From the NCBI GenBank assembly GCA_037893245.1, contig JBAIAA010000441.1, positions 2,046,001-2,110,000 of the forward strand: a stretch of DNA of 64,000 bases, given 5' to 3'. The notes under the pieces were generated by a model. The model did not search any database. It worked only from the letters and a program-made list of their open reading frames with translations, and had not been told where the DNA came from. This DNA comes from Crossaster papposus. Its lineage: Eukaryota; Echinodermata; Asteroidea; Velatida; Solasteridae. The position numbers and the translations under genes were made by a program. How positions within the stretch are numbered: the first letter of the stretch is position 1; each line of letters begins with the position of its first letter. Positions 7,607 through 63,834 of the stretch are shown piece after piece.

Positions 7607-8405
7607 CTTGAAAGAAATAAAGAAAAGTAAATAAATAAACAAATATTTATTTAATATATATAATAGGCAGAATAAAAAGATACAAGGAAAGAGGGCAAGA
7701 TGTTCTGGTTTAAAACACGGCTAAGTTTATTTTTAAAACATTAACTTTTCGACCATTCGGCCTTTATCAGGTTACAAATCGAGAAAAACATCAAAAAGTT
7801 AACGTAGCACCGCTAAACGTAGAAATGACAAATGGTAAGAGGTAGAGAGCCTCGCAATTACTTTTTTTAACTTCATATAGGCCTAGATCACGGCATAGAA
7901 AACTGGACTAAAAGCAATACTAAGTAAGAAATACTGAGGGTATTTAAAAGGACCATTTAGAGTCAACAAATAAAACTGGGTTAAGTATCAACTATAAATC
8001 ATAAAGGACACAGTCACTAAGTTACACCGTCGGTAAAACTCCTAAGAATTTGTAAAACGCAAATCCTCCCTCCACCAAACGAAGACACCGTATCGTACTT
8101 GCTATTCCAATAATTCATTTCTCTTGTTCAAACCATGCGCCATCCAATAAGCCTCTCCGGGTAAGAAGTATACCCGATCAAGGTGAGGGCTTGTGGTGGC
8201 ATTAAATTGTAATCTGTTGATGACAATTTAACGGAATGAAATTTCTCTCCGTTGTTAACCATTGAAGAATTATGGTCAGGAAATCTAATCTTCAACTGTC
8301 ATGATCGTGACGGGTGAAAAAGAAGTGTGGTAAATAATGGAAGGAAATTATAAATGATGTTTATATTTATTATTCGTCACAGGTGTAAACACAAATTTTA
8401 TGAAA
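7607..8405. other. No gene seen
   Basis: AT-rich DNA. A phrase around 7748-7765 (gaccattcggcctttatcagg) resembles 3' regions of retroelements, but nothing codes here. Confidence 0.35.
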
Positions 8406-8783
8406 CTGTATAGAGTGGGGCAGCATGGCCAACCTATTGTGCATTTTGTGATAAAAGCACCAAAATTGGCACAGGTGTAGATGGATAGATAGTAAGCAGA
8501 TATAGATATTGAGCCATCCCAAATTTGGTCTTGGACGGCCATTTTCCAAGATGGCCGCCAATCGCGTTATGTGAAATTGATTTGAGCATAGAATTACACA
8601 CAGATGATCAATATTGATGTTCTTGGTGTCTATTTATATAGATTTGGAGGTGCCAAAGCCAATTGTTATGGTTACAATATCCTCCGAGGTCACGATTTTG
8701 AATTGCTTCAAGGTTGCGCTCAAAATCCGCCTAAAATTGTGGTTTTGGGAAACTGCTCACAGTTCTCTCCTGTGGTCAGAAAG

Positions 8784-9149
8784 TCATTTCTGTGAGCAGT
8801 CGCCTTCACACACACACAGAGCTGTGCATTCCAGTCCAGCCTTTTTGCATTTGCAACGCCCCACACAAGCCTTTTTGCACTTGCATGACACTAGTTCATA
8901 GCAGGTGTTGGCTGCTTTGGGTAGAGTTGTCCAGTGTGGTTCATACAACCCATCATCATTCTTTGCCCATCCCCAGCTGGTGGGTGAAGGCAGTTCTGGT
9001 GCTGGAAGCAGTACTTGGCCCCACACATGGCCTCCCTGGTAGGCTGCCCTCTTGATGTGTTGCTCCAGTGCTGCCTTGGTTGGCGGGATCAGCTGCACAT
9101 TGTGCTTCTTTGCAAATAGTTTTTTCTCGCCTTGTTGATGTCCTTGCAC
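8784..9149 (-). CDS. C-terminal part with TSO1-like CXC cysteine cluster
   Basis: The frame includes KRAAYQGGHVWGQ, then PELPSPTSWGWAKNDDG and ends with a cysteine run CKCKKACVGRCKCKKAGLEC followed by CVCEGDC. The spacing resembles the CXC (tesmin/TSO1) DNA-binding cysteine motif, which binds zinc and DNA in that family. It overlaps the end of the 784-codon frame in another phase. The main frame reads KARKNYLQ at the point where this frame reads EKKLFAKKHNVQ, within a six-A run near 9122. One base lost from that run explains the shift, so the two frames were one protein. Confidence 0.75.
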   Translation of the reverse strand: MQGHQQGEKKLFAKKHNVQLIPPTKAALEQHIKRAAYQGGHVWGQVLLPAPELPSPTSWGWAKNDDGLYEPHWTTLPKAANTCYELVSCKCKKACVGRCKCKKAGLECTALCVCEGDCSQK

Positions 9150-11443
9150 TTGCTTGTTCTGTCATACAGTAGGATGACAAACCGCTCAATGGTTTGCATT
9201 ACTTCTGTTGGTATGTCATTTGGTGCAGAGGACAGTTTCAGCAGAGCTTCTGTTAGTTCTGGCATCACAGTCCAGATTGCCCATGCAGTCTTCTTACCAT
9301 GCCCTGCAAAACTGGACACAGTGTCACACCCGGTCAGAGCATGGAACATTGGCAGTGCTCGTGCCTTCTCCGGTCTCAGGCCAGCTGCTAACTCATGGGC
9401 TGCCAGGTAACGGAAACCCTTGGCAGTTCCGAATGCTAGCCACAGTTCATCTTCTGGTTGCAGCCGCTGCGCTACTGATACAGCCAATACCACAACATCA
9501 GTGTCAACAGTTCGGATCATGATCGTGTGGTGGCCACGCTGGGCTGCATGGTATGCATGCAGCAACATGCGACTGCCTGCCTCTTCATGGCTGCATGGGG
9601 TGAGGGATGTAGTATCCTGCAGTGGTGGCTTGCTTTGGACTGCCTCTCCATCAGTGATCACAAGCTGTTTGTCTTTCTGTTCAAACCACTGGAGAAGAGC
9701 TTCAGATAGAAATGTGAACAGCTGTGTCTTGTTGCTGTCCACTCTGAGGAAGTTCTGCCAGTTTCCTGGTATTGCTATCCCAGCCATCACACGCCTGCGC
9801 ACTCCCTGTCCACGCTTTGCTCTTGCAGTGCCTTTCAGTGAATCAGCAAAATAGCTGTCCCACACAAGATCCAGTCGTTTTGCAGTTTGAAGCTTTGTGG
9901 AAATGTATGGGATGAATATATCTTCAGCATACTTGCCAAAGTTCTTTGCTGTAGCTGGCTTCAGCATCTGTACGATGACTGCTCCATCAAGAACTACACT
10001 GGTAGTGGTTGGAGCCTTTAACTTGGCATCGGACAGGTCTTCCAAGCATGTGAGGAGGTCGCTTTTTGTACCTAAGCGGAGGCTTCCTCCATCAGAGAGT
10101 GCTGGAGGGCATGCCTGATTCTCATGACGAAAGAACTCCTCAAGGTTTCCTTCCCTCGTCTGGCAACCAATGTAAAGCCTTGAAAAAAGCTCCACGTTAT
10201 TCTTGAGAGAGGACAGCTGCTGCTTTCCTTTACTCACACTTCTAGTGGTGGAAGTACTGAACACCTTCAGTTTGTTTCGATGAATAGCATCATCAATGGG
10301 CTTCGTTCTTTCCAGCAGGCATTCTTTGGTGAAAGCCCGAAACTGCTCTTGGCCGATCCTCTTGACATTCCGGACAGTCTCAACTGCGGCAGGGCCCGCA
10401 ATTTCCTTTGTGTCAAGGACAACCAGATCCACGCTCTCTTCTTCAAATGGGTTGCCAAGGTCTTCTATCACACTGACAAGGGAGCGAACATCTTTAGCAA
10501 ATGAGATTTGCACGCTTGGTGTCTGGTCATGATGACGTGTGTCTGTTTGCCTGCCACAATGCTGGTGGCATTCTTGGAACTCTTCTATGGCCCTGGCAAC
10601 TTCTGGTCCAGCAACCATCCAACACCACAGAGCATTGGGGTTGTCAGTGAGGCCAACTGCTCCGCCGTCTCCTTTGATGCAGGCATTATTCTGTTCATGG
10701 GCCTGGTTAATCGGGATTGAAGAGAACACCTTCTTTGTCTTCTGTACAGTGGAACTGCCAGCCCTGAATTCCCGGGCTACGTCTGGATGCTTTGTTGGGA
10801 GTTTAGCCATGTCTTTCAGATGGACAGTGATCCACCTGGCATAGTTAGTGTGGTCTAGGGCATGGAACCAAGATGCCAGTTCTGTCAGGGCATCAATGTA
10901 CATTGTCAGTGATGCCTGCCGCAGAGAACGCACATACACCAGTACCAACATCTCAAGTTCTAGCACTGTTGCCCAGTATTGAAACTGTGGGATGTCTTCT
11001 TTCTGGTGGCACCAGTCATCAAACTCGGGGAGATCTTCTGCATGCTTGGCTTTGCTCAGACAGTTGCGGTCATAGGCACGGTGTTGCAGGATATACAGTG
11101 CTGCTGCGGTGATTTTGTGAGCTCTCCTTGTGCGGGCAACATGAGCTGCTCGTAGGAAGGAGTCAGCCGTCCCTGACGTCGCTATCTCAGCTTGCACCAA
11201 GGCTTGCACCCAGCCGCTCCCTTGCAGCCAGTCCCCCAGAGTCTTCAGTGCTGCCATCTCAATGTGTAGCCCACCAAACATCACCACCATCTTGTCTTCA
11301 CCATAGCTCTCCGGCCACTTCCACTGAATTTGCTTGGCCAAGGCAAACAGTGGTTGATCACAGGTAATCACTGGTGTCTGCCCTGGATTCAGGTGCTGGA
11401 CAGCATTCTTTATGACATCCATTGAGTGTCGGATCATAGCCAC
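9089..11443 (-). CDS. Main nuclease-like protein of the 8.4-12.6 kb element
   Basis: An open frame of 784 codons. Residues 1-80 hold VITCDQPLFALAKQIQWKWP and MVVMFGGLHIEMAALKTLG. Residues 480-710 show a pattern typical of FEN1/XPG and PIN-fold nucleases: VVLDG (D486), WDS (D529) followed by the basic run KGTARAKRGQGVRRR, HEEAGSR (E620, E621), VDTDVVVL (D647, D649) and LTGCDTVSSF (D707). In that fold such acids bind metal ions for 5'-flap or structure-specific cleavage. The middle (100-470) is mostly helical in look and unassigned. The frame's first methionine may not be the real start, because a related N-terminal part lies just upstream in another frame. The enzyme assignment is inference from motif order. 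Confidence 0.7.
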   Translation of the reverse strand: MAMIRHSMDVIKNAVQHLNPGQTPVITCDQPLFALAKQIQWKWPESYGEDKMVVMFGGLHIEMAALKTLGDWLQGSGWVQALVQAEIATSGTADSFLRAAHVARTRRAHKITAAALYILQHRAYDRNCLSKAKHAEDLPEFDDWCHQKEDIPQFQYWATVLELEMLVLVYVRSLRQASLTMYIDALTELASWFHALDHTNYARWITVHLKDMAKLPTKHPDVAREFRAGSSTVQKTKKVFSSIPINQAHEQNNACIKGDGGAVGLTDNPNALWCWMVAGPEVARAIEEFQECHQHCGRQTDTRHHDQTPSVQISFAKDVRSLVSVIEDLGNPFEEESVDLVVLDTKEIAGPAAVETVRNVKRIGQEQFRAFTKECLLERTKPIDDAIHRNKLKVFSTSTTRSVSKGKQQLSSLKNNVELFSRLYIGCQTREGNLEEFFRHENQACPPALSDGGSLRLGTKSDLLTCLEDLSDAKLKAPTTTSVVLDGAVIVQMLKPATAKNFGKYAEDIFIPYISTKLQTAKRLDLVWDSYFADSLKGTARAKRGQGVRRRVMAGIAIPGNWQNFLRVDSNKTQLFTFLSEALLQWFEQKDKQLVITDGEAVQSKPPLQDTTSLTPCSHEEAGSRMLLHAYHAAQRGHHTIMIRTVDTDVVVLAVSVAQRLQPEDELWLAFGTAKGFRYLAAHELAAGLRPEKARALPMFHALTGCDTVSSFAGHGKKTAWAIWTVMPELTEALLKLSSAPNDIPTEVMQTIERFVILLYDRTSKCKDINKARKNYLQRSTMCS

Positions 11444-11457
11444 CGTATGGGCACTGT

Positions 11458-12016
11458 CTAGGAAAAGTGGAAGCAGAGCAGTGGGGCAGATGACTCGAGT
11501 TGGTGGATGCTGCCGGTTGGCATGAAATGCTGCCCAAGAAGTGTTATCTTCTGTCTCAGTCTTGTCCTCCAGGGCCCACTTTGTGTGATGTAGATTTTCC
11601 AGAGCTGAAGAACGCGGTCATAGGAGATACTCATGCCCAGGTGCGACAACCTTTCTACCAATTCTCTATTGCGCGTGTGAGCATGAAGCATCATCCCCAC
11701 ATACATGGGAACTGGTGTCTCCTGTGCAGTGCTGTGCCTGACAGTTTTGTGTGGTGTAGTACCATGAGACCTCTTGTGTTTGATGCTGTTGAACTTGGGC
11801 AATGGCAAGTGCTGCAGGGGATGTGTCTGCTATCTGGTCCTTGATGCTGGGACCCTCTAGGACCATCCTCACCAAAACAAGCAACAGTGATTGCATAGAT
11901 TCCTCTTGGCATCCTTCGGGGAATCCATTGAAGGGCTTGGCCAAAAATTGGCGACACAAAATTAGTCTGACCACACACAAAGACAAAGGAACCAAGACAG
12001 GACCAAGACTCTGCAC
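11458..12016 (-). pseudogene. N-terminal part of the nuclease element protein, frame-broken
   Basis: Two overlapping minus frames carry one conserved region. The first (11666-12016) has FNGFPEGCQEESMQSLLLVL and ALAIAQVQQ. The second (11458-11808) continues as FNSIKHKRSHGT, ETPVPMYVGMMLHAHTRNRE and LVERLSHLGMSISYDRVLQ. The switch from one frame to the other lies near 11780-11800, and the second frame is again out of phase with the main 784-codon frame near 11450-11600. So this copy has at least two frame breaks or unseen introns in its N-terminal third. The block with HTRNRELVERL and SYDRVL is typical of the uncharacterised family. Confidence 0.6.
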
Positions 12017-12252
12017 AAGGTTGTTGCTAGGTAACCAGTAAGACCAGACTTCCAGACCACTGGATGCTTTATTGTGTACAGGATGGTCGCCAACTAAGGC
12101 TTAAAGGGCAGTAGACTTAAAGGAATGGTATATATGTACACTAACAGTGTCTGGTCACAATAATAAATAAACCGAGAAAAACTAATTGTTGGGGAACTCG
12201 CTTGCAAAACAAATGATTTACCTAGGATCGAGTGAAATTACGGTTCCCAATT

Positions 12253-12295
12253 AGACTAATTATGTTAATTGTTATGTTAATTAGTCTAATTATAG
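12253..12295. repeat. Short palindrome inside the transposon
   Basis: The sequence attagactaattatgttaat and its inverse flank a few bases, giving a stem of about 19 bases just inside the right terminal repeat. Confidence 0.6.
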
Positions 12296-12599
12296 TGCTT
12301 TTTATTGTACAAATTCAACTATTGGTCCTTCCCTGAGCTTTCCTGAACCTTTACAGGTGAAAAAAATCCAAATGCCAAGCTGCAGTACTCTGCAGCTGAG
12401 CAGGAAAGTAAAATACCAGTAACCACAGTCAGCCATTTTGGAAAATGGCCGCCGTGGATGTCAGGGGTCAAATCTGAGATGGCTCAATATCCAAATCTGT
12501 TCAAAATATAAGTGTGTACATGTGTACCAAATGTTATGCTTTTATCATAAAATGCACAATTGTTATGAATATGTTGGTTAAGCTGCCCCACTATCTGTA

Positions 12600-15130
12600 G
12601 TATAATGTGTATAATGGTGTAGGATTGTAGGATCTCCACTCTCCCCAGAAATCAGCTTTCTGGTTTTCTGTACATTTCAATGGCTGTAGGATTTTCTTAC
12701 CCATGTAGAATCTCTGTAGGATTTTTTGTACTGTGTATAATGGCGTAGGATTGTAGGATCTCCACTCTCCTCAGAAATCAACTTTTTGGTTTTCTGTACA
12801 TTTCAATGGTTGTAGGATTTTCTTACCCATGTAGGATTTTTTGTACTGTGTATAATGGTGTAGGATTGTAGGATCTCCACTCTCCTCAGAAATCATCTTT
12901 TTGGTTTTCTGTACATTTCAATGGCTGTAGGATTTTCTTACCCATGTAGGATTTTTTGTACTGTGTATAATGGTGTAGGATTGTAGGATCTCCACTCTCC
13001 TCAGAAATCATCTTTTTGGTTTTCTGTACATTTCCATGGCTGTAGGATTTTCTTACCCATGTAGGATTTTTTGTACTGTGTATAATGGTGTAGGATTGTA
13101 GGATCTCCATTCTCCTCAGAAATCATCTTTTTGGTTTTCTGTACATTTCAATGGCTGTAGGATTTCTTACCCATGTAGAATCTCTGTAGGATTTTTTGTA
13201 CTGTGTATAATGGTGTAGGATTGTAGGATCTCCACTCTCCTCAGAAATCATCTTTTTGGTTTTCTGTACATTTCAATGGCTGTAGGATTTTCTCACCCAC
13301 GAGGATTTTTTGTACTGTGTATAATGGTGTAGGATTGTAGGATCTCCACTCTCCTCAGAAATCATCTTTTTGGTTTTCTGTACATTTCAATGGCTGTAGG
13401 ATTTCTTACCCATGTAGAATCTCTGTAGGATTTTTTGTACTGTGTATAATGGTGTAGGATTGTAGGATCTCCACTCTCCTCAGAAATCATCTTTTTGGTT
13501 TTCTGTACATTTCAATGGCTGTAGGATTTTCTCACCCATGTAGGATTTTTTGTACTGTGTATAATGGTGTAGGATTGTAGGATCTCCATTCTCCTCAGAA
13601 ATCATCTTTTTGGTTTTCTGTACATTTCAATGGCTGTAGGATTTCTTACCCATGTAGAATCTCTGTAGGATTTTTTGTACTGTGTATAATGGTGTAGGAT
13701 TGTAGGATCTCCACTCTCCTCAGAAATCATCTTTTTGGTTTTCTGTACATTTCAATGGCTGTAGGATTTTCTTACCCATGTAGGATTTTTTGTACTGTGT
13801 ATAATGGTGTAGGATTGTAGGATCTCCACTCTCCTCAGAAATCATCTTTTTGGTTTCCTGTACATTTCAATGGCTGTAGGATTTTCTCACCCATGTAGGA
13901 TTTTTTGTACTGTGTATAATGGTGTAGGATTGTAGGATCTCCACTCTCCTCAGAAATCATCTTTTTGGTTTTCTGTACATTTCCATGGCTGTAGGATTTT
14001 CTTACCCATGTAGGATTTTTTGTACTGTGTATAATGGTGTAGGATTGTAGGATCTCCATTCTCCTCAGAAATCATCTTTTTGGTTTTCTGTACATTTCAA
14101 TGGCTGTAGGATTTCTTACCCATGTAGAATCTCTGTAGGATTTTTTGTACTGTGTATAATGGTGTAGGATTGTAGGATCTCCACTCTCCTCAGAAATCAT
14201 CTTTTTGGTTTTCTGTACATTTCAATGGCTGTAGGATTTTCTCACCCACGAGGATTTTTTGTACTGTGTATAATGGTGTAGGATTGTAGGATCTCCACTC
14301 TCCTCAGAAATCATCTTTTTGGTTTTCTGTACATTTCAATGGCTGTAGGATTTCTTACCCATGTAGAATCTCTGTAGGATTTTTTGTACTGTGTATAATG
14401 GTGTAGGATTGTAGGATCTCCACTCTCCTCAGAAATCATCTTTTTGGTTTTCTGTACATTTCAATGGCTGTAGGATTTTCTCACCCATGTAGGATTTTTT
14501 GTACTGTGTATAATGGTGTAGGATTGTAGGATCTCCATTCTCCTCAGAAATCATCTTTTTGGTTTTCTGTACATTTCAATGGCTGTAGGATTTCTTACCC
14601 ATGTAGAATCTCTGTAGGATTTTTTGTACTGTGTATAATGGTGTAGGATTGTAGGATCTCCACTCTCCTCAGAAATCATCTTTTTGGTTTTCTGTACATT
14701 TTAATGGCTGTAGGATTTTCTTACCCATGTAGGATTTTTTGTACTGTGTATAATGGTGTAGGATTGTAGGATCTCCACTCTCCTCAGAAATCATCTTTTT
14801 GGTTTCCTGTACATTTCAATGGCTGTAGGATTTTCTCACCCATGTAGGATTTTTTGTACTGTGTATAATGGTGTAGGATTGTAGGATCTCCACTCTCCTC
14901 AGAAATCATCTTTTTGGTTTTCTGTACATTTCAATGGCTGTAGGATTTTCTTACCCATGTAGGATTTTTTGTACTGTGTATAAATGGTGTAGGATTGTAG
15001 GATCTCCACTCTCCTTAGAAATCAGCCTTTTGGTTTTCTCTTTCTGTACATTTCAATGGCTGTAGGATTTTCGTACCCGGAATCTCTGTATGATTTTTTG
15101 TACTGTTTATAATGGTGTAGGATTGTAGGA
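12600..15130. repeat. 117-bp satellite with 949-bp higher-order repeat
   Basis: About 22 units each start with ggtgtaggattgtaggatct and end with tttttgtactgtgtataat. Unit lengths alternate between about 107-117 and 124-130 bases; the longer ones carry an extra agaatctctgtagga block. The pattern of lengths from 12972 to 13920 recurs from 13921 to 14869, so eight units form a 949-base block that has been duplicated almost unchanged. The array abuts the right end of the nuclease transposon. Open frames of 74 codons in it are by-products. Confidence 0.9.
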
Positions 15131-15167
15131 TGTGTAGAGTCCTACAAATTACAGGTGGTCAAAAGTG

Positions 15168-19758: not shown

Positions 19759-21318
19759 GTGGAAGATTTGCTGGCCACCTCTTCGGACATGCCGTACCGA
19801 AAGAACGCCGTAGCTAGCCGCCGACCCGGTCGCACAGCTCTGCCACATACAGTTGAAGACGGCGTGCCCCCGCCAAAGAAGTATCGGAAGCGCCAACCGT
19901 CTGTGAGGGGCAGAGGGCGGGGGGGGGGGGCTGCTGTCCCTCCCCCACACCAGGAGCCGCCTGCGAGAGGAAGAGGACGCGGGGCAGGGCCTGCCCTGCA
20001 CCAGGAGCCGTCTGCGAGAGGCAGCGGACGCGGGGCAGCTGTGCCTGCCCTACACCAAGAACCTGTGCCGCCTGCGAGAGGAAGAGGACGCGGGGCAGGG
20101 CCTGCCCTGCACCAGGAGCCGTCTACGAGAGGCAGCGGACGCGGGGCAGCTGTGCCTGCCCTACACCAGGAACCTGTGCCGCCAATCCGTCGTGGCCGCG
20201 GTCGACCCCGAAGAAACCCAAGCTCGGTCTCAGATCCGGATTTTCTGCACCCAGAGACCCAGCCGTCAACCTCCGTCGTGGAGGTGCATCCTCCTCGCAG
20301 CCATCATGATGAAAATGAACTGCTACACCATGACAACAACATGAACAATAACACTGATCCGTTCTCGGGTCCTAGTACTAGCACTAGCGGAGTAAGGGGT
20401 GGGGGTGAGTACAATGTTCATGATTCTCATACTGCCATTCCAATCAGTGCAATTCAGCTAGAGGCGGATGTCCGCCCAGTGCCATTATTTCAAATAGGAA
20501 AGTCGTGTGCAGCGTTAGGGTTTCATGTCTCGCAATCCACGAAAGACAAAATTCGGGCAGGGGAGTACATAGATCTGGCACCACTTTATAACGACACGGT
20601 GCATGCCGTACTTTCGCGGACAGATCAGTCAAATTTAACCTTCGGGATGGAAGGGGGCAACCTGGTCCTCAGGAAACCCGGCCCATCGCGTAGGCGCATC
20701 GAATTTTTCTCTATATGGCAATCGGCCTTTCACACATTTATGTCCATTTATCTGGACCAACACACCCAGAGCTATGCACAGCCATTAAAATACTGTGAAA
20801 TTATTCGTATGGCGTCAGCACAGTTTCCCGGTTACGGGTGGCGAACATATGACGAGCAGTTTCGGTTAAAGATGGAGATTGACCCCTCCCGTTCATGGGG
20901 GGAAATTGACATGGAACTCTGGGTGACGGTTGCTGCGGTCCCGGTAACCACTAACCAATCGGGCAATCGGTTAGGTAACACACAAGGGTGGGCCCCGGCG
21001 TCCAAAACCGGCCGCGGGACCGGCCATTGCTTTAATTTTAACAATAACCAGGGTTGTACATTTCCTCGATGTAGATACGCGCATACATGTAGTAGATGTA
21101 TGCGCTCGGGCCACGGAGCAGCTCAATGCTCGTCAGTGGGTTCAATTTCCACTGCACCGCGTAACGCATTTACGTATCATGCGCAGACACAATCCAGGAC
21201 CCGTCAACCCAGAGTTCCAATGACCAATGCAGTAAAAGGGGGGAATTTTAGTTCACCGGATACCAATTCTGCGGGTTCTCACGCTGCCCATACTGCACCA
21301 GTCAACCCTCGTCCATGA
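19759..21318 (+). CDS. Gag-like protein of the Ngaro fossil
   Basis: A 519-codon frame. The first 150 residues are rich in R, G, P and A, with tandem blocks of about 22 residues built on ARGRGRGAGPALHQEP. A central region of about 200 residues is the probable structural part. A CCCH-like zinc finger lies near the end (CFNFNNNQGCTFPRCRYAH, then CSRCMRSGHGAAQC). Such proteins coat the element's RNA in YR retrotransposons. Confidence 0.75.
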   Translation: MEDLLATSSDMPYRKNAVASRRPGRTALPHTVEDGVPPPKKYRKRQPSVRGRGRGGGAAVPPPHQEPPARGRGRGAGPALHQEPSARGSGRGAAVPALHQEPVPPARGRGRGAGPALHQEPSTRGSGRGAAVPALHQEPVPPIRRGRGRPRRNPSSVSDPDFLHPETQPSTSVVEVHPPRSHHDENELLHHDNNMNNNTDPFSGPSTSTSGVRGGGEYNVHDSHTAIPISAIQLEADVRPVPLFQIGKSCAALGFHVSQSTKDKIRAGEYIDLAPLYNDTVHAVLSRTDQSNLTFGMEGGNLVLRKPGPSRRRIEFFSIWQSAFHTFMSIYLDQHTQSYAQPLKYCEIIRMASAQFPGYGWRTYDEQFRLKMEIDPSRSWGEIDMELWVTVAAVPVTTNQSGNRLGNTQGWAPASKTGRGTGHCFNFNNNQGCTFPRCRYAHTCSRCMRSGHGAAQCSSVGSISTAPRNAFTYHAQTQSRTRQPRVPMTNAVKGGNFSSPDTNSAGSHAAHTAPVNPRP

Positions 21319-21324
21319 CTCGAT

Positions 21325-22480
21325 TTGAGCAAACCCAAAACCCCGTTTGTTACCCCCACGCCCATTAACCAAACAGTGTTAGATAACTGGCTGACAAAAT
21401 ACCCAATTGCAGATGATTGTCGCATACTAAGTAATGGATTTAAATATGGTTTTTCGTTGGGTTATGAGGGTCCCCGTATGCCCCGTGATTCAAATTGTTT
21501 AGCTACGGCGTCAGAACGCCCAATGGTGGTCAAAGCAAAACTTGCCAAGGAGATCAGTTTAGGCAGGATTGCAGGCCCCTATCAAAACCGCCCCTTTTCT
21601 AATCTACAATGTTCCCCCATAGGTTTAGTCCCCAAGAGTATGCCTAATACCTTTCGACTCATTCATCACCTGTCTTACCCTGCCGGTAATTCGATCAATG
21701 AATTTATTGACAGGGAACATTGTATAGTTCACTATGCCTCGTTTGACGAGGCTGTGGATTTGGTTATGACCGTAGGGGAATCGGCTTGGTTAGCGAAAGC
21801 CGACATTTCTGCATTTCGTTTGTTGCCAGTTTCACCTGCTGATTATGAATTGCTGGGGTTTTTCTTTGACAACCATTTTTACTTTGACAAATGTATGCCA
21901 ATGGGCTGTGCCATTTCTTGTTCGCTTTTTGAGAAGTTTAGTTCATTTTTGGAATTTCAAGTTAAGCATATGGCTGATGTATCTTTAGTCACTCACTATC
22001 TAGATGATTTTGTGTTTGTGGGCAACACGTCCTCCTCGTGTGCAGAGTTATTAGATGTTTTCCGCACTATGTGTACCAAGCTAAACGTCCCCTTAGCGCA
22101 CGAAAAAACTGAAGGGCCAGTGCAAACGATTAAATATCTAGGTTTGGAAATCGATACTGTTCGCGCCCAAGTTAAAGTCCCACAGGAGAAAGTTACCAAA
22201 ACATGTGGTCAAATTCATGCTTTCTTGAGTAAGACAAAGGCCACGCTGGTGTCAATGCAGTCGTTATTGGGTTCCCTCAATTTGTTGTGCAGGGCTATCG
22301 CCCCGGGTCGTGCCTTTTTGCGGCGTTTCACCAACCTCACCAAAGGCTTGAAACGGCCACATCACAAAGTTCGTATCTCCCAAGGGGCGCGTCTGGATTT
22401 ACTCATGTGGTTAGAATTTCTTGTGCATTTTAATGGCGTATCGGCATTTTCAAGTAGGCACTGGGTAGATAATGAAACAC
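21325..22480 (+). CDS. Reverse transcriptase part of the Ngaro fossil
   Basis: RT motifs appear in order: GLVPKSMPNTFRLIHHLSYP, AKADISAFRLLPV, MPMGCAISCSLFEKFSSFLE and YLDDFVFVG (the YxDD box), followed by the thumb-like region with KYLGLEID. This arrangement is typical of DIRS and Ngaro elements, whose RT resembles that of LTR retrotransposons. Confidence 0.85.
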
Positions 22481-22785
22481 TTCAGTTTCAGTTTCAGTTT
22501 CAGTTCCAGTTTATTTTCCACAGTACCAATAACATAGAAAAACATTTAGATTAAAGGTATAGATAAGGCAAAACATAAGTACATTGTTAAAAAGATGGAT
22601 GATACTGCGGAGGAGCCCATAAAGAAGCAAAACTTGTAAGGAATGGGCTCCTGAAAGCATGCATGTACATTGAGCCGAGTAGATGTGGATTTGTTGACTA
22701 GGAAACAAGTGTACTCGTAATTGATCCCAAGAATATGGGCTCAATGTACATGCTGCTAACAATGGACATATTAACACAAAAAGTG
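22481..22785 (-). mobile_element. Short retroposon inserted in the Ngaro fossil
   Basis: About 300 bases unlike the surroundings. On the plus strand it starts with four copies of cagttt-type repeats, which read on minus as an (AAACTG) tail. It also contains an inverted pair around ggagcccat and atgggctcc, and another around gagcc...tgtacat. It has no coding frame and is probably a SINE or LINE tail. Confidence 0.6.
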
Positions 22786-23271
22786 ACAAATAACAACGGA
22801 CATAAACAGTATACTACGATTGAAACACTTGCTTTGTACACAGACGCGTCCGGTAGCATAGGTTTTGGGGTGTATTTTGACGGTCAATGGATGCAAGGTC
22901 GATGGTCGGACGATTTATTAACGAACCCGCCATCCATTGCATTCCTCGAACTGTTTCCCATAGTTGTTGCTATCCTTGGCTGGGCGTCGCGTTTCCAAAA
23001 CCAAAAACTGCGGTTTAACACTGACAACATGGCTGTTGTCCATATTATAAACAAGCAAACGTCTCACTGCCCAAGAATAATGCATCTGGTGCGCCTACTT
23101 GTACTTGAATTTCTTAGGTGTAATATTGTGTTTAAAGCCGTGCATGTGCCGGGGGTACACAATGAAATTGCCGACTCTCTATCCCGTTTCCAGATGTCCC
23201 GTTTCCGCGAGCTGGCCCCACGAGCAAGTCCACTCCCAACCCCCTTACCTCACCTTCCAGCGATCTGGTAG
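22786..23271 (+). CDS. RNase H part of the Ngaro fossil
   Basis: It carries ALYTDASGSIGFGVYFDGQW, then FLELFPIVVAILGW, NTDNMAVVHIINKQTS and VPGVHNEIADSLSR: the D, E, D and D pattern of RNase H, which removes the RNA strand during copying. Confidence 0.85.
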   Translation, partial: TNNNGHKQYTTIETLALYTDASGSIGFGVYFDGQWMQGRWSDDLLTNPPSIAFLELFPIVVAILGWASRFQNQKLRFNTDNMAVVHIINKQTSHCPRIMHLVRLLVLEFLRCNIVFKAVHVPGVHNEIADSLSRFQMSRFRELAPRASPLPTPLPHLPAIW

Positions 23272-23279
23272 AGAATGAA

Positions 23280-24185
23280 ATGCGCCGGCTGTTAGACGCT
23301 TCAATAGCACCAGGTACGCATAAAACATACGCAACAGGTTGGGCATCATTTTGTCGGTTTCGCCAACAACGCATATCAGAGGGGCGCGCCGCGAAGACAT
23401 ATGAGATCCGACAGTTGATAGCTTGGCTGTCATTACAATCAATTTCCCCATCTACAATTGCGACTTACGTGTCAGCAGTTGGATATAAACACAGGTTACA
23501 AGGCTGGCCTGACCCAACTAAGGATTTTCTAGTTTCCAAATTACTCGAGGGGTGCCGTCGCACACGCCCCTCGCGCGATTCTCGCCAACCCGTTTCTTTG
23601 CCTATGCTAAATCAAATCGTGCAGTCTCTTCCCCATGTGTGTTCATCTCTCTACGAGGCAAAGATGTTTTCCGCCGCGTTTCTAAGTGCATTTTTTTTCG
23701 GGGAGTTCACGGCAAATTCTCGGTTTCACACTCAACCTTCAGTGATTACCGATTCGGATGTAGAATTTTCTTACCGCGATACCCAATGTCATGTTACCAT
23801 TTCATTCAAGCAGAGTAAAAATAATCAACATGGTGATCCGCAAATCGTATGTCTAAAGCCGTCCGATAATGTTTTCCTCTGTCCCGTGTCAGCACTGCTC
23901 ACATATGCTCGGGTACGCCCCAATCATGCAGGTTCATTTTTTTGTCATTTTAACTGTACCCCCCTTACTCGCTATCAGTTTAACGGGGTATTGAAGAAAG
24001 CACTGGCATTTAATAACATACCGGCTGACCACATTAAAGGTCATTCTTTGCGCATAGGGGCGGCCTCGGCGGCATATCAAATGGGGGTCCCTCAAACAAA
24101 CATTCGTGCTATGGGTCGCTGGCGCTCGGACGCGGTCAATACATATATCCGTCCTCTGCCCATTTCTCCCTGGCCAGGCGTCTAG
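23280..24185 (+). CDS. Tyrosine recombinase of the Ngaro fossil
   Basis: A 301-codon frame. The N-terminal half has the core-binding type helices (TYATGWASFCRFRQQRI, STIATYVSAVGYKHRL). The C-terminal half has KGHSLRIGAASAAYQMG, GRWRSDAVNTYIR: the H-x-x-R and the final tyrosine of the recombinase family. It would join circular or linear DNA copies into the genome. Confidence 0.85.
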   Translation: MRRLLDASIAPGTHKTYATGWASFCRFRQQRISEGRAAKTYEIRQLIAWLSLQSISPSTIATYVSAVGYKHRLQGWPDPTKDFLVSKLLEGCRRTRPSRDSRQPVSLPMLNQIVQSLPHVCSSLYEAKMFSAAFLSAFFFGEFTANSRFHTQPSVITDSDVEFSYRDTQCHVTISFKQSKNNQHGDPQIVCLKPSDNVFLCPVSALLTYARVRPNHAGSFFCHFNCTPLTRYQFNGVLKKALAFNNIPADHIKGHSLRIGAASAAYQMGVPQTNIRAMGRWRSDAVNTYIRPLPISPWPGV

Positions 24186-25445: not shown

Positions 25446-26750
25446 ACTATGGGAGAACTAAAGAATTATAAAGAATTACTAAAATGTTGCTTGGAATGAA
25501 AATTTTTAAGCGGTTCATTATACCAGTAGTTTTTGAAATCTTGCTAGAGATATCACAAATGTGTTTCTTCCACGTAAGATTTTCATCAATTGTCACTCCT
25601 AGAAATTTAGTATTCGTGACACGGTTTAAATTTACATCATTTAAAACTAGTGGGACGGATTGGGTATATTTCTGTTGTCTTGAAGAAAATATCATATAGT
25701 TAGATTTCAGCAGATTAATACACAATTTGTTTGCTAAAAGCCAATTAGTTAGTTGGTTAAGTTCAATATTAAAAACCCGAATAGCTGTATCCACATTGTT
25801 ATGGCTGTACACCAAACTTGTGTCATCGGCAAATAAACAGAATGATATAATGTCAGATGCACAAGGAATATCGTTAATATACAGAATAAATAGAAGAGGG
25901 CCTAGTGTAGAACCCTGGGGAACGCTACAATGGATGGATTGATCATTTGAATTTACAGAATTATATGAAACAAATTGTTTTCGATTAGATAAGTAACTTT
26001 TAAACCAATTAAGGGCTACACCACGAATACCATAATTTTCAAGTTTACAAATTAAAATGTCATGGTTAACTGTGTCAAAAGCCTTAGAGAGATCAAGAAA
26101 AATACCAATAGAAATGTTACCACCATCTATGGCTTTGAGTAATTTATGAATAACATACGACGTTGCTAGTTCAGTTGAACGCTTTTTTCTGAAGCCGAAT
26201 TGCGATTCGGACAAAATATTATGTTTATTAATAAAAGTTATGAGACGGTTGTATATTATTTTTTCAAAAACCTTTGAGAATGTAGATAAAACTGCAATAG
26301 GTCTATAATTACCAATATTATGTTTGTCACCATTCTTATATATTGGTACAACTTTACCTATCTTTAAACCATTGGGGAAAACACCTGTAACTAGAGATTC
26401 ATTAAAGATATAAGCAAGTGGCTTTGCTAACAGTACTTAGCCTGTTTGATAACAAAAGCACTTAGACCATCAAAGTCAGGGGCCTTTCCATTAGGAATTG
26501 TGTTAAGAATGTCTACAATTTCTTCTGACGTAATAGGATTTTAAAAAAGGGAACTCGCCTCCCGATCACGAAGAAAGGATTCAAATGTGGTGTTACATAA
26601 TGGTAGATTACTTGCAAGTCTACAGCCCACATTTACAAAATACTCATTAAATGCATCAGCAATGTCTTTGTTACTGTCAATCGTTACACCATCTTGAACA
26701 AAGTGCGAGGGGTATACGTTTTTGCTTACCCTTGTTTAATACAGAATTTA
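25446..26750 (-). mobile_element. RT part of the split LINE
   Basis: The minus strand reads an ORF2 reverse transcriptase: IGNYRPIAVLSTFSKVFEKI, FGFRKKRSTELATSYVIHK, IFLDLSKAFDTVNHDIL, SVPQGSTLGPLLFILYINDI and LFADDTSLVYSHN (FADD catalytic box), ending LVILYNSLVLP at 25447. The frame is open from 26214 downwards; further up it is broken near 26440 and 26540. The 5' end of the element is truncated at about 26750 inside the 11-bp satellite. The family is Jockey/CR1-like. Confidence 0.85.
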
Positions 26751-34000: not shown

Positions 34001-37000
34001 TGTTTCTATTTTATAAACAAACAAACATTGTCTTAAAGGGTTCTTCTAAAACAAGAATAATTTGAATCCAATTGCGATACATGGTGTGTAAACGTTGTGA
34101 TCCTTTAACTTTAAGAACTTCAATTGATAAATTATTAACCATACAGTTTTTGTTTCTATTATTTATCCGGAGTTTCGTTAATACAATATGCGTCAAAACA
34201 TTGCATAAGTGCGTCAACACAGTCACAGCGCAGCGTACTCGATAATGACGTACACAGCAAAGTTGTACGGGGAGTTGGCAGTCTCGGGCGTTAGAGAATT
34301 TACGAGATTTTAACGTGAGCTCGGATGTGAACCTCGAAAAATCTCCTCATGCGCATTAACGTTCGTGAAACTTAAAATGTCTACAAATGTACTAATATAT
34401 ACATCAAATTAAAGCCTGTAATAAAACAAAGAAAATAACGAAAACAAAGTAATTAAAAACAAGCTTGTATAAAAAAGTTAAATCACTTAAATTGTTGCAA
34501 TATGTTCATTATAGTCCCGATCGAGTGATATTAGTATGTTCAGCCATCCTGCATTCAATGCACGCTGCCGCATTGTAGTCCCTCGACTTTTTATAATTTC
34601 ACTCGGTGCCATAGGCTATACTTCGGACAAGGGAAAGGGCTCAAACTATAATACTCTGATCTGCGGGTATACTACCTTTTTTCCCAGTTCCCAGTTAGGC
34701 TTGATATTCTCGATTTCAGCTTGTACGTCTCCTGATCTGCCCACTTTTAGATATCGGTAAGCGTCCAACAGCTCGGTGCCCATTTTGTTTTCCATCTCCG
34801 TTACTTTCTGAGCAGCATAAATAAAGCAAATTAAACTTTACAGGCTTATGTTCAGTATTTATTTGCTGCCTACGAATTACTCCATGTTCAAATTTAACTC
34901 GGTTTTAAGTTACAAGTATGGGCCTGGATGTGTTAATGCTCAATCCCATCAGTCGGTTTTATACTGATGGAATTATTTAATACAGGCCAACCACATTTTG
35001 TTCTATTCATACAAAGTCAAAACAACAACAAAGAAGAGTTAAACAAAAAACACCGTCAACCTTAGTACTTTAGTAACTGCGCAATAGTCGTAGCCTTGTT
35101 GCCATTTTGTGATTGAACAATTAACGACGTTCGTTTGCTGGAGATGCGGTGTTTTCATATCTCCAGTGAGCGCGCTAGCTCAGCATGCATACAGCAGGCT
35201 CGCACTGCGCGCTGCATGCTTTCTAATTCCACACATCATATGCGGTATCCAGAGCTGCACCATATAGAAAACTAAACAGACACCCGTACCACGCGTACCA
35301 TACCAGTCTCAAACGTCCGCTTTTCGATATACGGAACGGCACCTCGCAATCACTGTCATTGATTTATTTTTGTCATTTATTAATTTTACAGTTGATGCAT
35401 TAGCCGAACGGCATTATTTGTCCAATCACAAAATGGCAACAAGGCTACGAATATTGCGCAGTCTTTAGTACTCACACGCCATCTTGGTTCAACCAGCTAT
35501 AGGTATGTACCTCGTGTATGTGTCATTGTGACGCGCGCGTTCCACCTAATGATCGATATGAAGTGATGTGTGTTGCAGAGTAATTGAGGACTATTAATAT
35601 ATGGACACACATTGCGCAGGCCGTGTGAAACTTCAACAAATAAAAGGTTCATGGACCAGACTTAATGCGTAAACAACTTTGTGGGCCATGTTTTATCGGT
35701 CGTTTAAACATACCGACGTGTGTCGAGCTCTTGACCAATACGAACGGTTATTGTCTCATGTATTTATGAATGAATAATAATGTCAGTGTGTTTTCCTTTA
35801 CCCAGTCTCTCTGCTTCCTCTCACCTATATACTTTAGCTGTGTAGAGATATAGAACAGAGAGATACTCTAATTGTGTTTTATCACGGTCTGTCTCTCTTT
35901 AGACCAATTTGCCCAGTAGTTATTTTCCCCCTTCTTATGATTTGGCATTTTGGGGGAAGATACACCATTTGCACATATTGAGAAAACCAATTAATACAAA
36001 ATTACTAAGAAATATCGTAGTTATTTGAAAGTAAATAATGATTCCAGGCATCCATCAAAATTATTGCGCTAGATATCCTGTAATTATTTCGAAAAATTGA
36101 ATTTTATTTTAAAAAAATCATGGTTATTTTCTTTTTTCTCGGCATCCAAAATACAACCCCCATAATTCACCCATTCCTGATAGTTGAAGCAATTATCAAT
36201 GGTGTATCCTACCGCTAAGATAAATATCAGTTCCTTTTTTCAGTTTTCGTGATTTCTTTTTCTTTTTTCTGTAGCCCTTTGCCTAGAGTGGCTTTTTAGC
36301 CGTGATTGGGGCGATATTACATTTACAAAAATACCAAAATAGTCCCGACGCTTGCATCGTTCCCCAAAAATTACAGATAAAAAGTGTCAACCCTTAAAAC
36401 AAAGAAACAGGGAGTTTACCTGTTTTACAACTGGTTCATCGTTCCAGATGTGGATCCGGAAGGGATAGTGATTTTCAGACGGATCAAAGGGGCTCCCAAA
36501 CAATCCTGCCATCATTATTTTGGTGCTGGTTTCGGATGGTTCGCCAACTAAAGCTGCCCCTGTGAAATGCTTCATCAGTAGTACGACGGTCTGGTCTTTG
36601 GTAGACACCAGCATGCCGTCGTCGTCTGCATCAAGAGTCTTCCAGGATTTTGGCGAGCCTCCTTCGTCATTGCACAACTGTACGTTCAACTTCCACCCGC
36701 TCCCCTCCTGGGCAAAGTGTGGGTAAGACAGCACCACGCTGTCCAGAAACTTCAGACCTGTTGGGCCGCACTGGATCATCGGCGACAGGACACAGTCCGA
36801 CGGACCGACCCCGTCAACTGTCGGCGCGTTGGGGTTGACGTAGATATACACCTGCTGCAGTCGACCTTTGGGTAGTGCCCGGCGGGGGATGTACAGGTGG
36901 ACTTTGTACTCGAACAAGGACAGGCTCCCACCCTCCTGGTCGAAGTAACCGATTGCAATGTACATCAACTGGAAGGTGTTCTTCCTCAGCGTCTCTTCGC

Positions 37001-40000
37001 TGCATCCTTTGGCAAATTGGTCGTGTTCCTCTAAGATCCTTTTCAGGAGAGTTGGCAGAGCGGACGAACTGTCTGTAATACAAATCATGATGCATGTACG
37101 TTAAGCCCGGTTCATAATCGGCGCAAAAAGCCAGTTGAACACATTTCAGCACCGTCGAAATTCGCAGCGAATGCTTTATTATGACGTCAAATTCGCAACG
37201 CATTTGCATTTGCATAAATGATGAACCACCCTTTAAAAGTGTATTAAACCACTAAGTAAAATCACTCTGTTGGTGATTTAAGTGGCCTTCTGTTCAAAAT
37301 TCGCCAACAAAGTTGACAATTGCCTCAAAAATTTGTGACATTGCATTGTAACGTAATACAGGCTACATACATGGTGTCTCTAAAAAAAGTATACCCATTT
37401 TTTTAATTCATATTCATAAATACCTGGGACTGTTTAGGCATTCCTATTGGTCCAGAGCCCGTCACGTGGCCGGTATTAAACGGACAATAAAGACATGGCT
37501 GGAAGTGTTTAAAACCACCTGGCAACAAAATTCCGTCACCAGGGCTCACTTTATTTCCAACCCTGAACCATACCTCGTCTCCAATAATAAGAGCGGGTAG
37601 TGTTTGGCGCGTACAGCTCGACACCTTGGGAACGAGATTGCCAATGGCAGTAATAGTGTGGTTCATTGTAAATACGCTTTATTGCATGTATTGTGTAGAG
37701 GTCGACAGAGGCGGAAACATGTCATTTGACACAGACAGAATGGCGAAACACCGAAATTTAATTGCGACAATTTTCCGGGATTTTCGGGGGTTTTTTTGGC
37801 TGAATTTCACAAAAAAAGGTATTTATGAATGGGAATAAATGTGAGTTCGGTCGGTATTATTCACTCTGTTTAATACCGCTTGGAGTCTGGGTGCTGATAA
37901 TTACCCTCGCCTTCGGCTCGGGTAATTATCAACACCCAGACTCCAAGCGGTATTAAACAGAGTGATTAAAACCTCTCGAACACACAGTATTCCCTTATTA
38001 TTGCAAAAATACTGAATATTTCAGTGCTGATTTCTGTACATTTCATAAATGTCTTGTTTGTTTAGTCATTCATGGCAATGACACAATTAGCCTTATACCA
38101 TTGGACAGAGAACATTCTACCCTTTTCACAGACATTTGGCTTTTTCTAAAATATTTAGTAGTTTTTCAATAATACAAATTTTAAAATGGGTATACTTTTT
38201 TGTAGAGACACCCTGTAGAACATTCCACCAAAATTCGACGCATACCAATCAGCGTATAGGTAAATATTATCCGTGGATATACGTACCTGGAGATGATTGT
38301 AAATTCACAGATTTCTCCGCTGTTATAGCAAAGCTGGTTTCCTGAAAACAAAAACGAGGAACTGCAAAATGTGGGTTTTTAAAATTCTTAAACGTGTAGC
38401 AAAGAAATTGACTGGAGCGGGGTCTGAACCTGTAACGTCCAGAATAAAGTTACGGTGCTCTACCAACTGAGCTATACTAAGCCCCGTGCAATATATTTGT
38501 GTTTATATGAGAACTTTATGATAAATGAACAATTGATATACGTCAATGCCATACGCCATATATACCTCCTGTTAATACACAGAGGCGGTCCTTTTTGCAA
38601 ATCCGGGGTAGCATGAATTTCAGACTCTATGAAATCCAGACTCATTGGTAGTATTGCGCATGATTAAGGAGAGATAATTAGGAGCGTGATCTGTCACGTG
38701 AGAGGGTTTAACCAATAATAGCAAAAAAAGGTCTGATTTCCATATGACACCAGCCTCTCAAAGAAAACAGTCGTCTTGACAACACGTCTGGTTAGCTGAT
38801 ACTTCTTGTACGTAGCCTATGGTGATACGCAATTGCATATCACTTGATAGTGGACTACCACCACAGTGTTTTAATAACTATTCCAAAAGCCAGTCTTCTA
38901 CAGGCAGTAGGCCTATCTGCCATTCTAAAGGTTATTACTTACCCATAAAACAATTGACCATGTAGGCTAATTTCAAGAGGGAAAATATTCTTTATAGTAA
39001 TTATATAGGGTTCATGAGTGTACTCGACATTTCGGTAAAATTGATTAACACTGTAGTTTAAAATAGAGTGTTGTCTTGCACGACATCAATTAAAAACAAA
39101 TAATGTTGCAGCCCTGCAATAGACTTCAACAATGTAAGAGTTATATGGAACCAAGGATTTTCAGACAGATTTAAACTAACGAAGACAAATCTCATATATA
39201 CACTGATGACAGTATATCGATCAGATATGGCAAAACCGTGAAATATACTTAATTAACTCCGCAGTTAAACAGTAAAGGTAAATCGAATGTACACTTACCG
39301 ATGGCCCCGCGTCTAGTGGGCCCTGTAAAGGAACAAAAGAGATGTTAAACATTCATTGATAAAGTTTAATTGTGTGTTTAAAGGGAATAAAAACCAGGAA
39401 AATGGCACAGGATTCAACACGTTGTCTTCATCTTACGTATATATATTATTACAAAGTGTCAACGTTTTCTTCTGGATATTTTCTTCTTTCCTCTGGATTG
39501 TTAAATTAATATAATTCTAATGACATAATTGTATAAAGAAGTTAAATCTGTGAAATTGCAGTACAAGAAAAACGCAAAACTCCGCCGTGTAATGAAATCA
39601 CGAAAACAGAAAGATTGAGTGAAGCAAGGCTAGGGGAAACAATAATACTCAGAAGTTTTGTTGTTGTTGGAGAAAATTTGACTGGACTTGCTTTTCTTTG
39701 TAAATATCTATTTCTGGCTCGGGAGGTTAACTTCTTTCCTTTATAAAGTTACACTTTCTTCCTTTCGCTTGCAATTGGGTGAGTTATGAGAGAAAGGGCC
39801 AGCCCATTATTATCGTGAGTAAAAGGAACAAAATATCGGGAAAAGTACATTGAGTTCGTTTTCAGCCCATTCAATTTCAATGGAAGGTAATGGAAAGTAA
39901 GTCATACGTAGCTGAACCTCTATGAGTAAAAACAAACTATCAAAGACAGGGAAAGAAACACTAGTTTTTAGTTACAAACAAGGCAGCTAGTCTGGTTTCC

Positions 40001-61861: not shown

Positions 61862-63834
61862 TTTATTTATTTTTATTTTTATTTATTCCATTTCTTTACC
61901 CAGGGTGTGCCCAAACAGTTTAAAACTGGTTTTCATTGGGGCCCTGCATACATCATCAAATAAAATAACAGTACATATTATAAATACAAGGATATTACAG
62001 GAATTCTAAACATTAATACTAATTCTGATTTACGAGATAGGCGAAAACCCGCCAAATAAAAAACCCTTTTAGGTGAAAAATAAGAAGGGGAAATTCCTAT
62101 CCGGCTCCACATTATGGTGGCAACCAAGTTCTAACTCCGTAGATCAGCGCAATTGGCATAATATCTAACACTCAGATGGCATGTCGGAGCTCTGATTTAA
62201 ATGTGCTTAATGAGTCCAATGTTCGCAATTGTTCGGGCAGATTATTCCAAATATTTGCACCACTCACAGCGAAACTTGTGGCGTAGCATTCTTTTTTGGC
62301 GAAAGGAACTTTCAGTGCCGTGTGGGTTGATTGCCTTGTTTCGCGAATTACTGTAAGTGGTTTGAAAATATTTGTCATGTACAAAGGAGTCATTTTGTTG
62401 ATACTTTTGAAGACAAGAATAGCCTTTTTTGACTTGACTCTTTTTGAAAAAGGGGCCCAATTAAGACGAGCAAACATATCCTCTGAAGGGGTGAGGAAGG
62501 TACATTTAAGGATTATCCGCGCGGCTCTTTTGAGACATTTGTTCAACATATTATCGTGAGATATGTACCTTCCTCCCCACACAGTACAACAATACTCTAA
62601 TGTTGGCATAACTAGACTTACAAATAGTGTGTGCAAGCTGTGCTGAGGAATACAATCACGGATTCTTCTTAGTATACCTAATTTAGACACCACATTTTTT
62701 CTTACGTATTCGACATGTGGGGCCCAACTTAATGCTTCATCAATAATTACACCCAAACATTTATAAGACTTCACATTTTCAATACGACTACCAGCAATGC
62801 ATACATTTAAATTAACATTAGATATTTTCTGCCTAGTACCAATAAGCATGCATTTGGTTTTGGTGGCATTTAAAGCTAGCTTGTTCCTTCCGCACCAGTT
62901 GTGAAAACTAGTAAGAGCTGTATTTAAGCTACTTTCTATTATATTAATGTTGGAGGAGCTACACGTTAATGTGGAGTCATCTCCATATATAAATAAGTTG
63001 CAGTTTGGGGCAATACAAAATGGAAGATCACTAGTATAAACAATGAATAAAAGTGGACCTAGTATCGACCCCTGTGGAACACCAGTGTTTACGGACAGGA
63101 CCTTTGATATGGTGCCGCCAATATTCACAGACTGACTACGTTCACTTAGGTACGACTTAAACCAATTTATTACAGAGGATGACATGTTCATCCTTTCTAG
63201 TTTCTTTAGTAAGATTTCATGATCAACACAATCAAATGCTTTACTAAGGTCTATAAACACACTGCCTGTAACTTGTCCATTCTCCATGGCCGCAAAACAC
63301 TTGTTTGTTAAGTCATGTAGGGTGCTTTCAGTTGAGTGCAGGGGTCTAAATCCCGACTGGCAACTAGGAATCAGATTGTTTTCATCAAGATATCTATATA
63401 CCGATGAGTGCACCCATCTTTCTAAAATCTTAGAGATAATTGGCAGTATAGAAATTGGACGATAGTTACCTGTACTACATTTATCTCCTCCCTTGTGAAT
63501 TGGTGTTACTAAAGCATGTTTCCAATCTTTAGGGTATCGCTCACATCTTATAGACAGGTTACAAATATGAGTTAAAGATTTAATGATATAAGGTGAAGCA
63601 ATTTTAATCATTTTAACACTAATTCCATCCGGACCTGTTGCTTTCCCAACCGACATGGATGATATTTGCTTTCGAACAAACTCTTCTGTAATGTTAGGTA
63701 CTACGCAATCTTCATCAACAGAATCAAATATAGAGGCGTCAGTATTGTCATCTGTTTCAAGTTCACGCAAAGGGTAATTTCCAGCAGTACGCTTGCCGAT
63801 TGTTGAAAAGTGTTCATTTAATGTATCAGCAATG
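61862..63834 (-). mobile_element. LINE (Jockey/CR1-like) inserted in copy B
   Basis: The minus strand encodes the RT and C-terminal part of ORF2. Its 3' end at 61862 has an AT-rich tail; the 5' end is truncated at about 63834, where copy B resumes (atttatgaatgaataataat). Copy A has no LINE at this point (35760), so the insertion is younger than the duplication. Confidence 0.9.
62172..63834 (-). CDS. LINE reverse transcriptase, 5'-truncated
   Basis: Open from the truncation point to the stop at 62172, with a 532-codon stretch from 63770. Motifs in order: VGKATGPDGISVKMIKIASP, HALVTPIHKGGDKCSTGNYR, SGFRPLHSTESTLHDLT, VFIDLSKAFDCVDHEILLKK, TGVPQGSILGPLLFIVYTSD and LFIYGDDSTLTC. The catalytic box is YGDD in place of the more common YADD or FADD. 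The C-terminal region has CLKRAARIILKCTFLTPSED and SGANIWNNLPEQLRTLDSLS. There is no internal stop, so the insertion is fairly recent. The 5' endonuclease part is missing. Confidence 0.9.

Follow-up and report, generated by a model that had tools for sequence, protein, structure and literature searches.

The 64,000-nucleotide stretch of the Crossaster papposus genome analyzed here (contig JBAIAA010000441.1, positions 2,046,001–2,110,000; the window) carries one copy of a repeat family whose intact members encode a protein of ∼1540 residues, comprising N-terminal Cys pairs, a D/D/E-like set of acidic residues, a second group of acids in the order found in FEN1/XPG nucleases, and a Cys-rich tail. 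The original prediction for this locus was a transposon-like element, and the many copies of the family, their inverted ends and 3-bp target duplications, the empty sites, and the near-identical dispersed copies all bear this out.

Alignment with an intact relative, L009 (6858 bp), divides the window copy into three blocks (97%, 92%, and 91% identity), with 389 bp and 2350 bp of L009 absent (Table 1). The inverted ends, predicted earlier and recovered at about the positions tabulated, are imperfect, with arms of 39, 92, and 20 nt that are 74%, 76%, and 95% complementary, respectively; a second comparison of the ends gave 129 columns at 71%. The 784-codon frame of the original prediction is present (9089–11443, minus strand; its GTG start is merely the first start-like codon), although as the whole protein it is rejected, since the open frames of relatives span 1537 and 1546 residues, of which it is only a part. 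The ratio of nonsynonymous to synonymous substitution rates (dN/dS, NG86 method) between L009 and the window copy gave values of 0.39 and 0.95 from few changes, as expected for a decaying copy. The window copy is a decayed, internally deleted member of the family. It is almost certainly dead, because the first D motif is missing and the two remaining regions have each lost one conserved aspartate. With the D motif lost, the D-to-N and D-to-G changes, and the frameshifts, it could at most be mobilized by the proteins of other copies.

Table 1. Features of the window copy and its target site (window coordinates)
Feature	Position	Strand	Basis
Left CTGTA, no target duplication	8406..8410	+	Present in 6/6 empty sites retrieved
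Whole element copy, internally deleted, 4181 bp	8413..12593	- (coding strand)	Three-block alignment to L009, end scan
Left inverted end; first base G, T in relatives	8413..8555	+	Inverted-repeat search, L009 alignment, end scan
Frame with C-terminal Cys-rich (CXC-like) tail, out of frame with main frame; L009 residues 1422–1537	8784..9161	-	Open reading frames, L009 alignment, Cys conservation
Main open frame, 842 codons stop to stop; L009 residues 602–1430	9089..11617	-	Open reading frame list, L009 alignment
Putative FEN/XPG-like region; L009 residues 1130–1420, frame residues 479–769	9137..10009	-	Conserved acids; profile comparisons without support
Codon 623, Gly; Asp in 22/23 loci; FEN E160-like position	9575..9577	-	Residue mapping
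Codon 246, Asn; Asp in 22/23 loci; directly before HEQ motif	10706..10708	-	Residue mapping; coordinate calculated from residue number
Junction of 389-bp deletion, which removes L009 residues 472–601 including the DNIDHNP motif	11594..11600	.	L009 alignment, residue mapping
Frameshifted remnant of L009 residues 347–471, then 2350-bp deletion at ~11962–11966	11602..11962	-	L009 alignment
Right inverted end	12432..12593	-	Inverted-repeat search, L009 alignment, end scan
Right CTGTA, no target duplication	12595..12599	+	Present in 6/6 empty sites retrieved

A protein search of the genome (1,023,315,904 bases in 1841 contigs) with the window frame returned at least 65 matches with identities of 47%–100%, a lower bound, as 57 of 1954 first-look candidates were scored. 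A search with a different query yielded 54 matches, and 109 were obtained when a diverged copy's nuclease-like region served as the query. Intact elements, judged from copies with good ends, are 5.6–7.6 kb long. The coding region is a single open frame of 1537 residues in L009 and L010 and of 1546 residues in L013 and L014; in the subfamily comprising L020 and its kin the frame is split in two, and the sequence between the halves resembles, by eye, a GT...AG intron. The family has moved recently, as follows from the near-identical pairs (99.5%–99.97%) located at different sites with unlike flanks: L009/L010 (99.97%), L013/L014 (99.95%), L020/L022 (99.60%), and L026/L027 (99.54%). The 99.89% identical pair L018/L024 has common flanks and is one insertion seen twice. 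None of 13 pattern matches in viral contigs was confirmed as a relative.

The inverted ends of the family begin with TAGTG and were found in 19 of the 21 loci tested; none was found in L012, and L015 consists of two opposed copies. In an end scan of 20 loci, both ends matched a TAGTG-type consensus, itself built from the same ends, at eight or more of nine positions in 16 loci; L017 was probably scored at the wrong place, and four loci with poor end scores (L010, L016, L023, and L037) were left out of the duplication counts. An exact 3-bp target duplication flanks 10 of the 16 scored loci, compared with 12 of 240 mismatched pairs, and 9 of 15 distinct insertions when the shared flanks of L018 and L024 are taken into account. 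One scored locus (L025) has a 4-bp duplication, and L013, located within a local repeat, additionally shows a 6-bp match; no duplication of 9–10 bp was observed in the 20 loci of the scan. Empty sites were located by joining the flanks around a single copy of the duplicated triplet. For L014, the joined flanks with one CAT match nine places over all 297 bases, two of them at 100%, and for L018, those with one TAC match seven places at whole length; the empty sites retrieved (one for L014 and two for L018) contain a single 3-bp copy. L014 sits in repeated sequence with adjacent long open frames (flank at 7769–9501 of the locus) that appear retroelement-like by eye, and many empty copies of this repeat exist.

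The target site of the window copy differs from the original prediction, which had proposed CTGTA as a 5-base target duplication. The joined flanks of this copy have 595 matches in the genome, at least nine of them end to end among the matches listed, and all six of the end-to-end sites retrieved read CTGTA-TA(G or A)AATCT-CTGTA with the element absent. As both CTGTAs pre-exist in these empty sites, CTGTA is rejected as a duplication; the family duplication is 3 bp. The junction of the window copy contains three target bases fewer than the empty sites. A tandem array (12606–15131; units of ∼115–126 bp, with a higher period of 240 bp) adjoins the element; its unit recurs genome-wide, as the 595 matches indicate, with the element positioned at the array edge and the site empty elsewhere.

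Residues of the full-length protein are numbered here as in L009, and conservation was assessed by mapping onto 23 loci, which include near-duplicates. N-terminal to the nuclease-like region lies a D/D/E-like set comprising D505 or D508, D680, and E901. Both D505 and D508, within the motif DNIDHNP, are present in 21 of the 23 loci (the sequence is missing in the window copy and in L017), D680 of the motif DQPL is present in 22 (missing in L017), and E901 of HEQNN is present in all. By sequence, the DNIDHNP, DQPL, and HEQNN set looks like a DDE core. The tail cysteines C1505, C1507, C1515, C1517, and C1528 are kept in 23/23 loci, and the N-terminal C43 and C46 are found in 16/16 loci covering those positions.

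Within the nuclease-like region, D1137, D1180, K1188, R1192, R1195, D1298, D1300, D1358, and K1368 are present in all 23 loci, E1272 is present in 22 (Asp in L012), and D1274 is present in 22 (Gly in the window copy). The series opens with D-(43)-D and its basic residues, continues through E-x-D and D-x-D, and closes with G-C-D, after which comes a G-K-K stretch; the residues highlighted in the original prediction (D486, D529 and its basic patch of K537, R541, and R544, E620/E621, D647/D649, and D707 of the 784-codon frame) are placed as it claimed. The region's acids were matched to the FEN1 active site using the roles of the FEN1 residues. The region resembles the FEN1/XPG/EXO1/GEN1 5′ nucleases in that seven active-site acids follow one another in the same order at roughly the same spacing, in the basic residues after the second Asp, and in a G-K-K-T/S/A sequence after the last Asp, which recalls their G-x-G-x-K motif. 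In contrast to these enzymes, 22 of the 23 loci carry Asp as the second member of the E-x-E pair, and the region shares its polypeptide with a transposase-like part and a Cys-rich tail. A loose pattern that specifies the FEN1 acids and basic residues with their spacing is present in 10 of 14 archaeal FEN1 sequences and in 7 of 13 family members; it occurs in none of 20,000 shuffled versions of the L009 protein, none of 20,000 shuffled versions of its domain, and none of 137 unrelated frames (≥200 residues), weak evidence because the pattern was composed after the family had been seen. From the order and conservation of these residues, the region seems to be a FEN/XPG-like nuclease.

The nuclease of AcademX is XPG-like. 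The lineage, part of the Academ superfamily, reportedly goes back to Kojima in 2020. AcademX elements are described as having duplications of 3 or 4 bp and AcademH elements duplications of 9 or 10 bp, a difference linked to the nuclease encoded by the former and the helicase encoded by the latter (PMC10045372). Two further papers list Academ among the superfamilies with a DDD/E transposase (PMC9587614), and employ Academ DDE profiles and report 100 curated bivalve Academ consensi with a mean length of 5565 bp (PMC10294476). The C. papposus family is similar to AcademX with respect to its 3- or 4-bp duplication (of the 16 scored loci, 10 have 3 bp and one has 4 bp) and the encoding of a nuclease along with the transposase, both parts being putative in the family, and it is similar to Academ in length (5.6–7.6 kb). 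AcademH, of the same superfamily, is described with a helicase and 9–10-bp duplications (PMC10045372), whereas the family has a 3-bp duplication and no helicase family in Pfam scans. KolobokD, KolobokE, and KolobokP are likewise DDE elements with an added nuclease, which in their case belongs to the DEDDh, lambda-exonuclease, or His-Me finger type (PMC9587614). Based on duplication length, size, and the pairing of transposase-like and nuclease-like regions, we regard the element as probably an AcademX-type DNA transposon with a DDE transposase and a fused XPG-like nuclease; its class is probably one already known.

A number of observations weigh against this assignment and the domain identities on which it draws. 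Membership in AcademX was judged from published descriptions of the lineage. The loci were picked by similarity to a query containing the FEN-like region and so cannot exclude relatives without it. No exact 3-bp duplication flanks six of the 16 copies that were scored; the window copy is one of these six, and for it the end scan and the empty sites reveal no duplication at all. Pfam scans of 12 members identified just DUF6589, below the cut-off, in two (L020:4060-6774, E = 0.00027; L028:2024-5143, E = 0.0013), and the element's frames in the window matched no Pfam family. The DUF6589 matches cover the stretch holding HEQNN, and this family may be a distant relative of the transposase part. The XPG family (PF00867 and the like) was not found in the Pfam scans up to E = 1. 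Comparison with archaeal FEN1 using hhalign, for which L063 and L073 were omitted owing to stops in their translations and the ends of several other loci were trimmed by 3–6 bases, gave a non-significant E value of 0.12. When the profile comparison was repeated in four settings, shuffled columns reached the score in 64, 63, 11, and 42 of 150 trials, and the reversed profile outscored the real one in three of the four. An hmmsearch of PDB sequences retrieved no FEN chain up to E = 10, and phmmer and hmmsearch against PDB sequences returned just HflX (E = 0.02–0.034), which we take as chance; as a control, an archaeal FEN1 profile retrieves 37 distinct FEN-family PDB sequences. A single-sequence AlphaFold model from the window sequence had a predicted local distance difference test (pLDDT) score of 35.7, too poor to use.

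On another reading, the region could be some Asp/Glu-rich domain, degenerate or unrelated to FEN1 (an XRN-like or NYN-like PIN relative, or a domain without a PIN fold), that is like FEN1 in motif order only: the searches yielded neither profile-level similarity to FEN1 nor a usable fold model. The post hoc spaced pattern, present in family members and absent from shuffles and unrelated frames, argues weakly in the other direction, and we consider such a domain unlikely. For the FEN/PIN-like nuclease originally predicted, the acid order and conservation speak in favor, and the profile comparisons lend no support.

A route unlike DDE transposition, also raised in the original prediction, would make the FEN/PIN-like region itself the transposase, a structure-specific nuclease that excises the element, and the upstream D/D/E-like set non-catalytic. 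The acids of the nuclease-like region are conserved at least as well as those of the upstream set, no DDE family was recognized in the Pfam scans, and the dN/dS values that could be computed are similarly low for the two regions, all of which favors this route. However, the full protein contains a second conserved set, with D508, D680, and E901 kept in 21, 22, and 23 of 23 loci, respectively. Furthermore, DDE elements yield fixed-length target duplications and inverted ends, which is the output seen in the family. AcademX is also placed in a DDE superfamily in print (PMC10045372, PMC9587614, PMC10294476). We judge the non-DDE route improbable; the other suggestion made at the time, that the protein is a captured helper, comes nearer.

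Between diverged pairs, dN/dS (NG86) is 0.054–0.146 in the 11 of 16 region comparisons that were computable, which counts in favor of the assignment to AcademX; the corresponding dS values of 1.1–3.6 are near saturation, so that only the direction of the ratio is safe, a caution for the same assignment. Low ratios also speak for a different reading, in which the copies are a host gene, or a family of such genes, whose inverted ends arose by chance. The inverted ends themselves, the 3-bp duplications, the clean empty sites, and the near-identical copies at unrelated sites are contrary to this possibility, which we reject as having next to no probability.

Elsewhere in the window, three frames lie in a row on the plus strand at 19759–24185: the first (519 residues) is without assignment, the second contains a reverse transcriptase (PF00078, E = 1.1e-14), and the third is tyrosine-recombinase-like (PF00589, E = 5.8e-06, just under the cut-off). 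This layout points to a DIRS- or Ngaro-like retroelement. Frames on the minus strand at 25447–26214 and 62172–63770 encode reverse transcriptases (PF00078, E = 1.4e-27 and 1.7e-35, respectively) and are probably non-LTR elements. A minus-strand frame with a ZU5 domain (36387–37088; PF00791, E = 1.7e-18) is possibly a host-gene exon.

With respect to mechanism, the D/D/E part of the AcademX-type protein may be a transposase of RNase H fold, cleaving at the TAGTG ends and inserting them into the target with a stagger of 3 bp. Either during excision or after strand transfer, the FEN/XPG-like part would cut or trim flaps, gaps, or branched intermediates where the element ends, and the Cys-rich parts would bind DNA. 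We tentatively propose, at somewhat less than even chances, that one polypeptide couples a DDE transposase and a FEN/XPG-type flap nuclease, that both active sites are needed, and that the nuclease processes flaps or branched intermediates and sets the 3-bp stagger. If the two enzymes are coupled in this way, the element would carry its own repair enzyme instead of depending on that of the host. The copy in the window is a dead relic of the ordinary sort. The family, in contrast, appears to have been active recently, as its open frames are intact, some copies are nearly identical, and the ends are defined. It is therefore well suited to practical work on the reason for which a lineage of transposons encodes a flap-type nuclease, and on whether the nuclease shapes the length of the duplication, an effect suggested for AcademX as against AcademH (PMC10045372).

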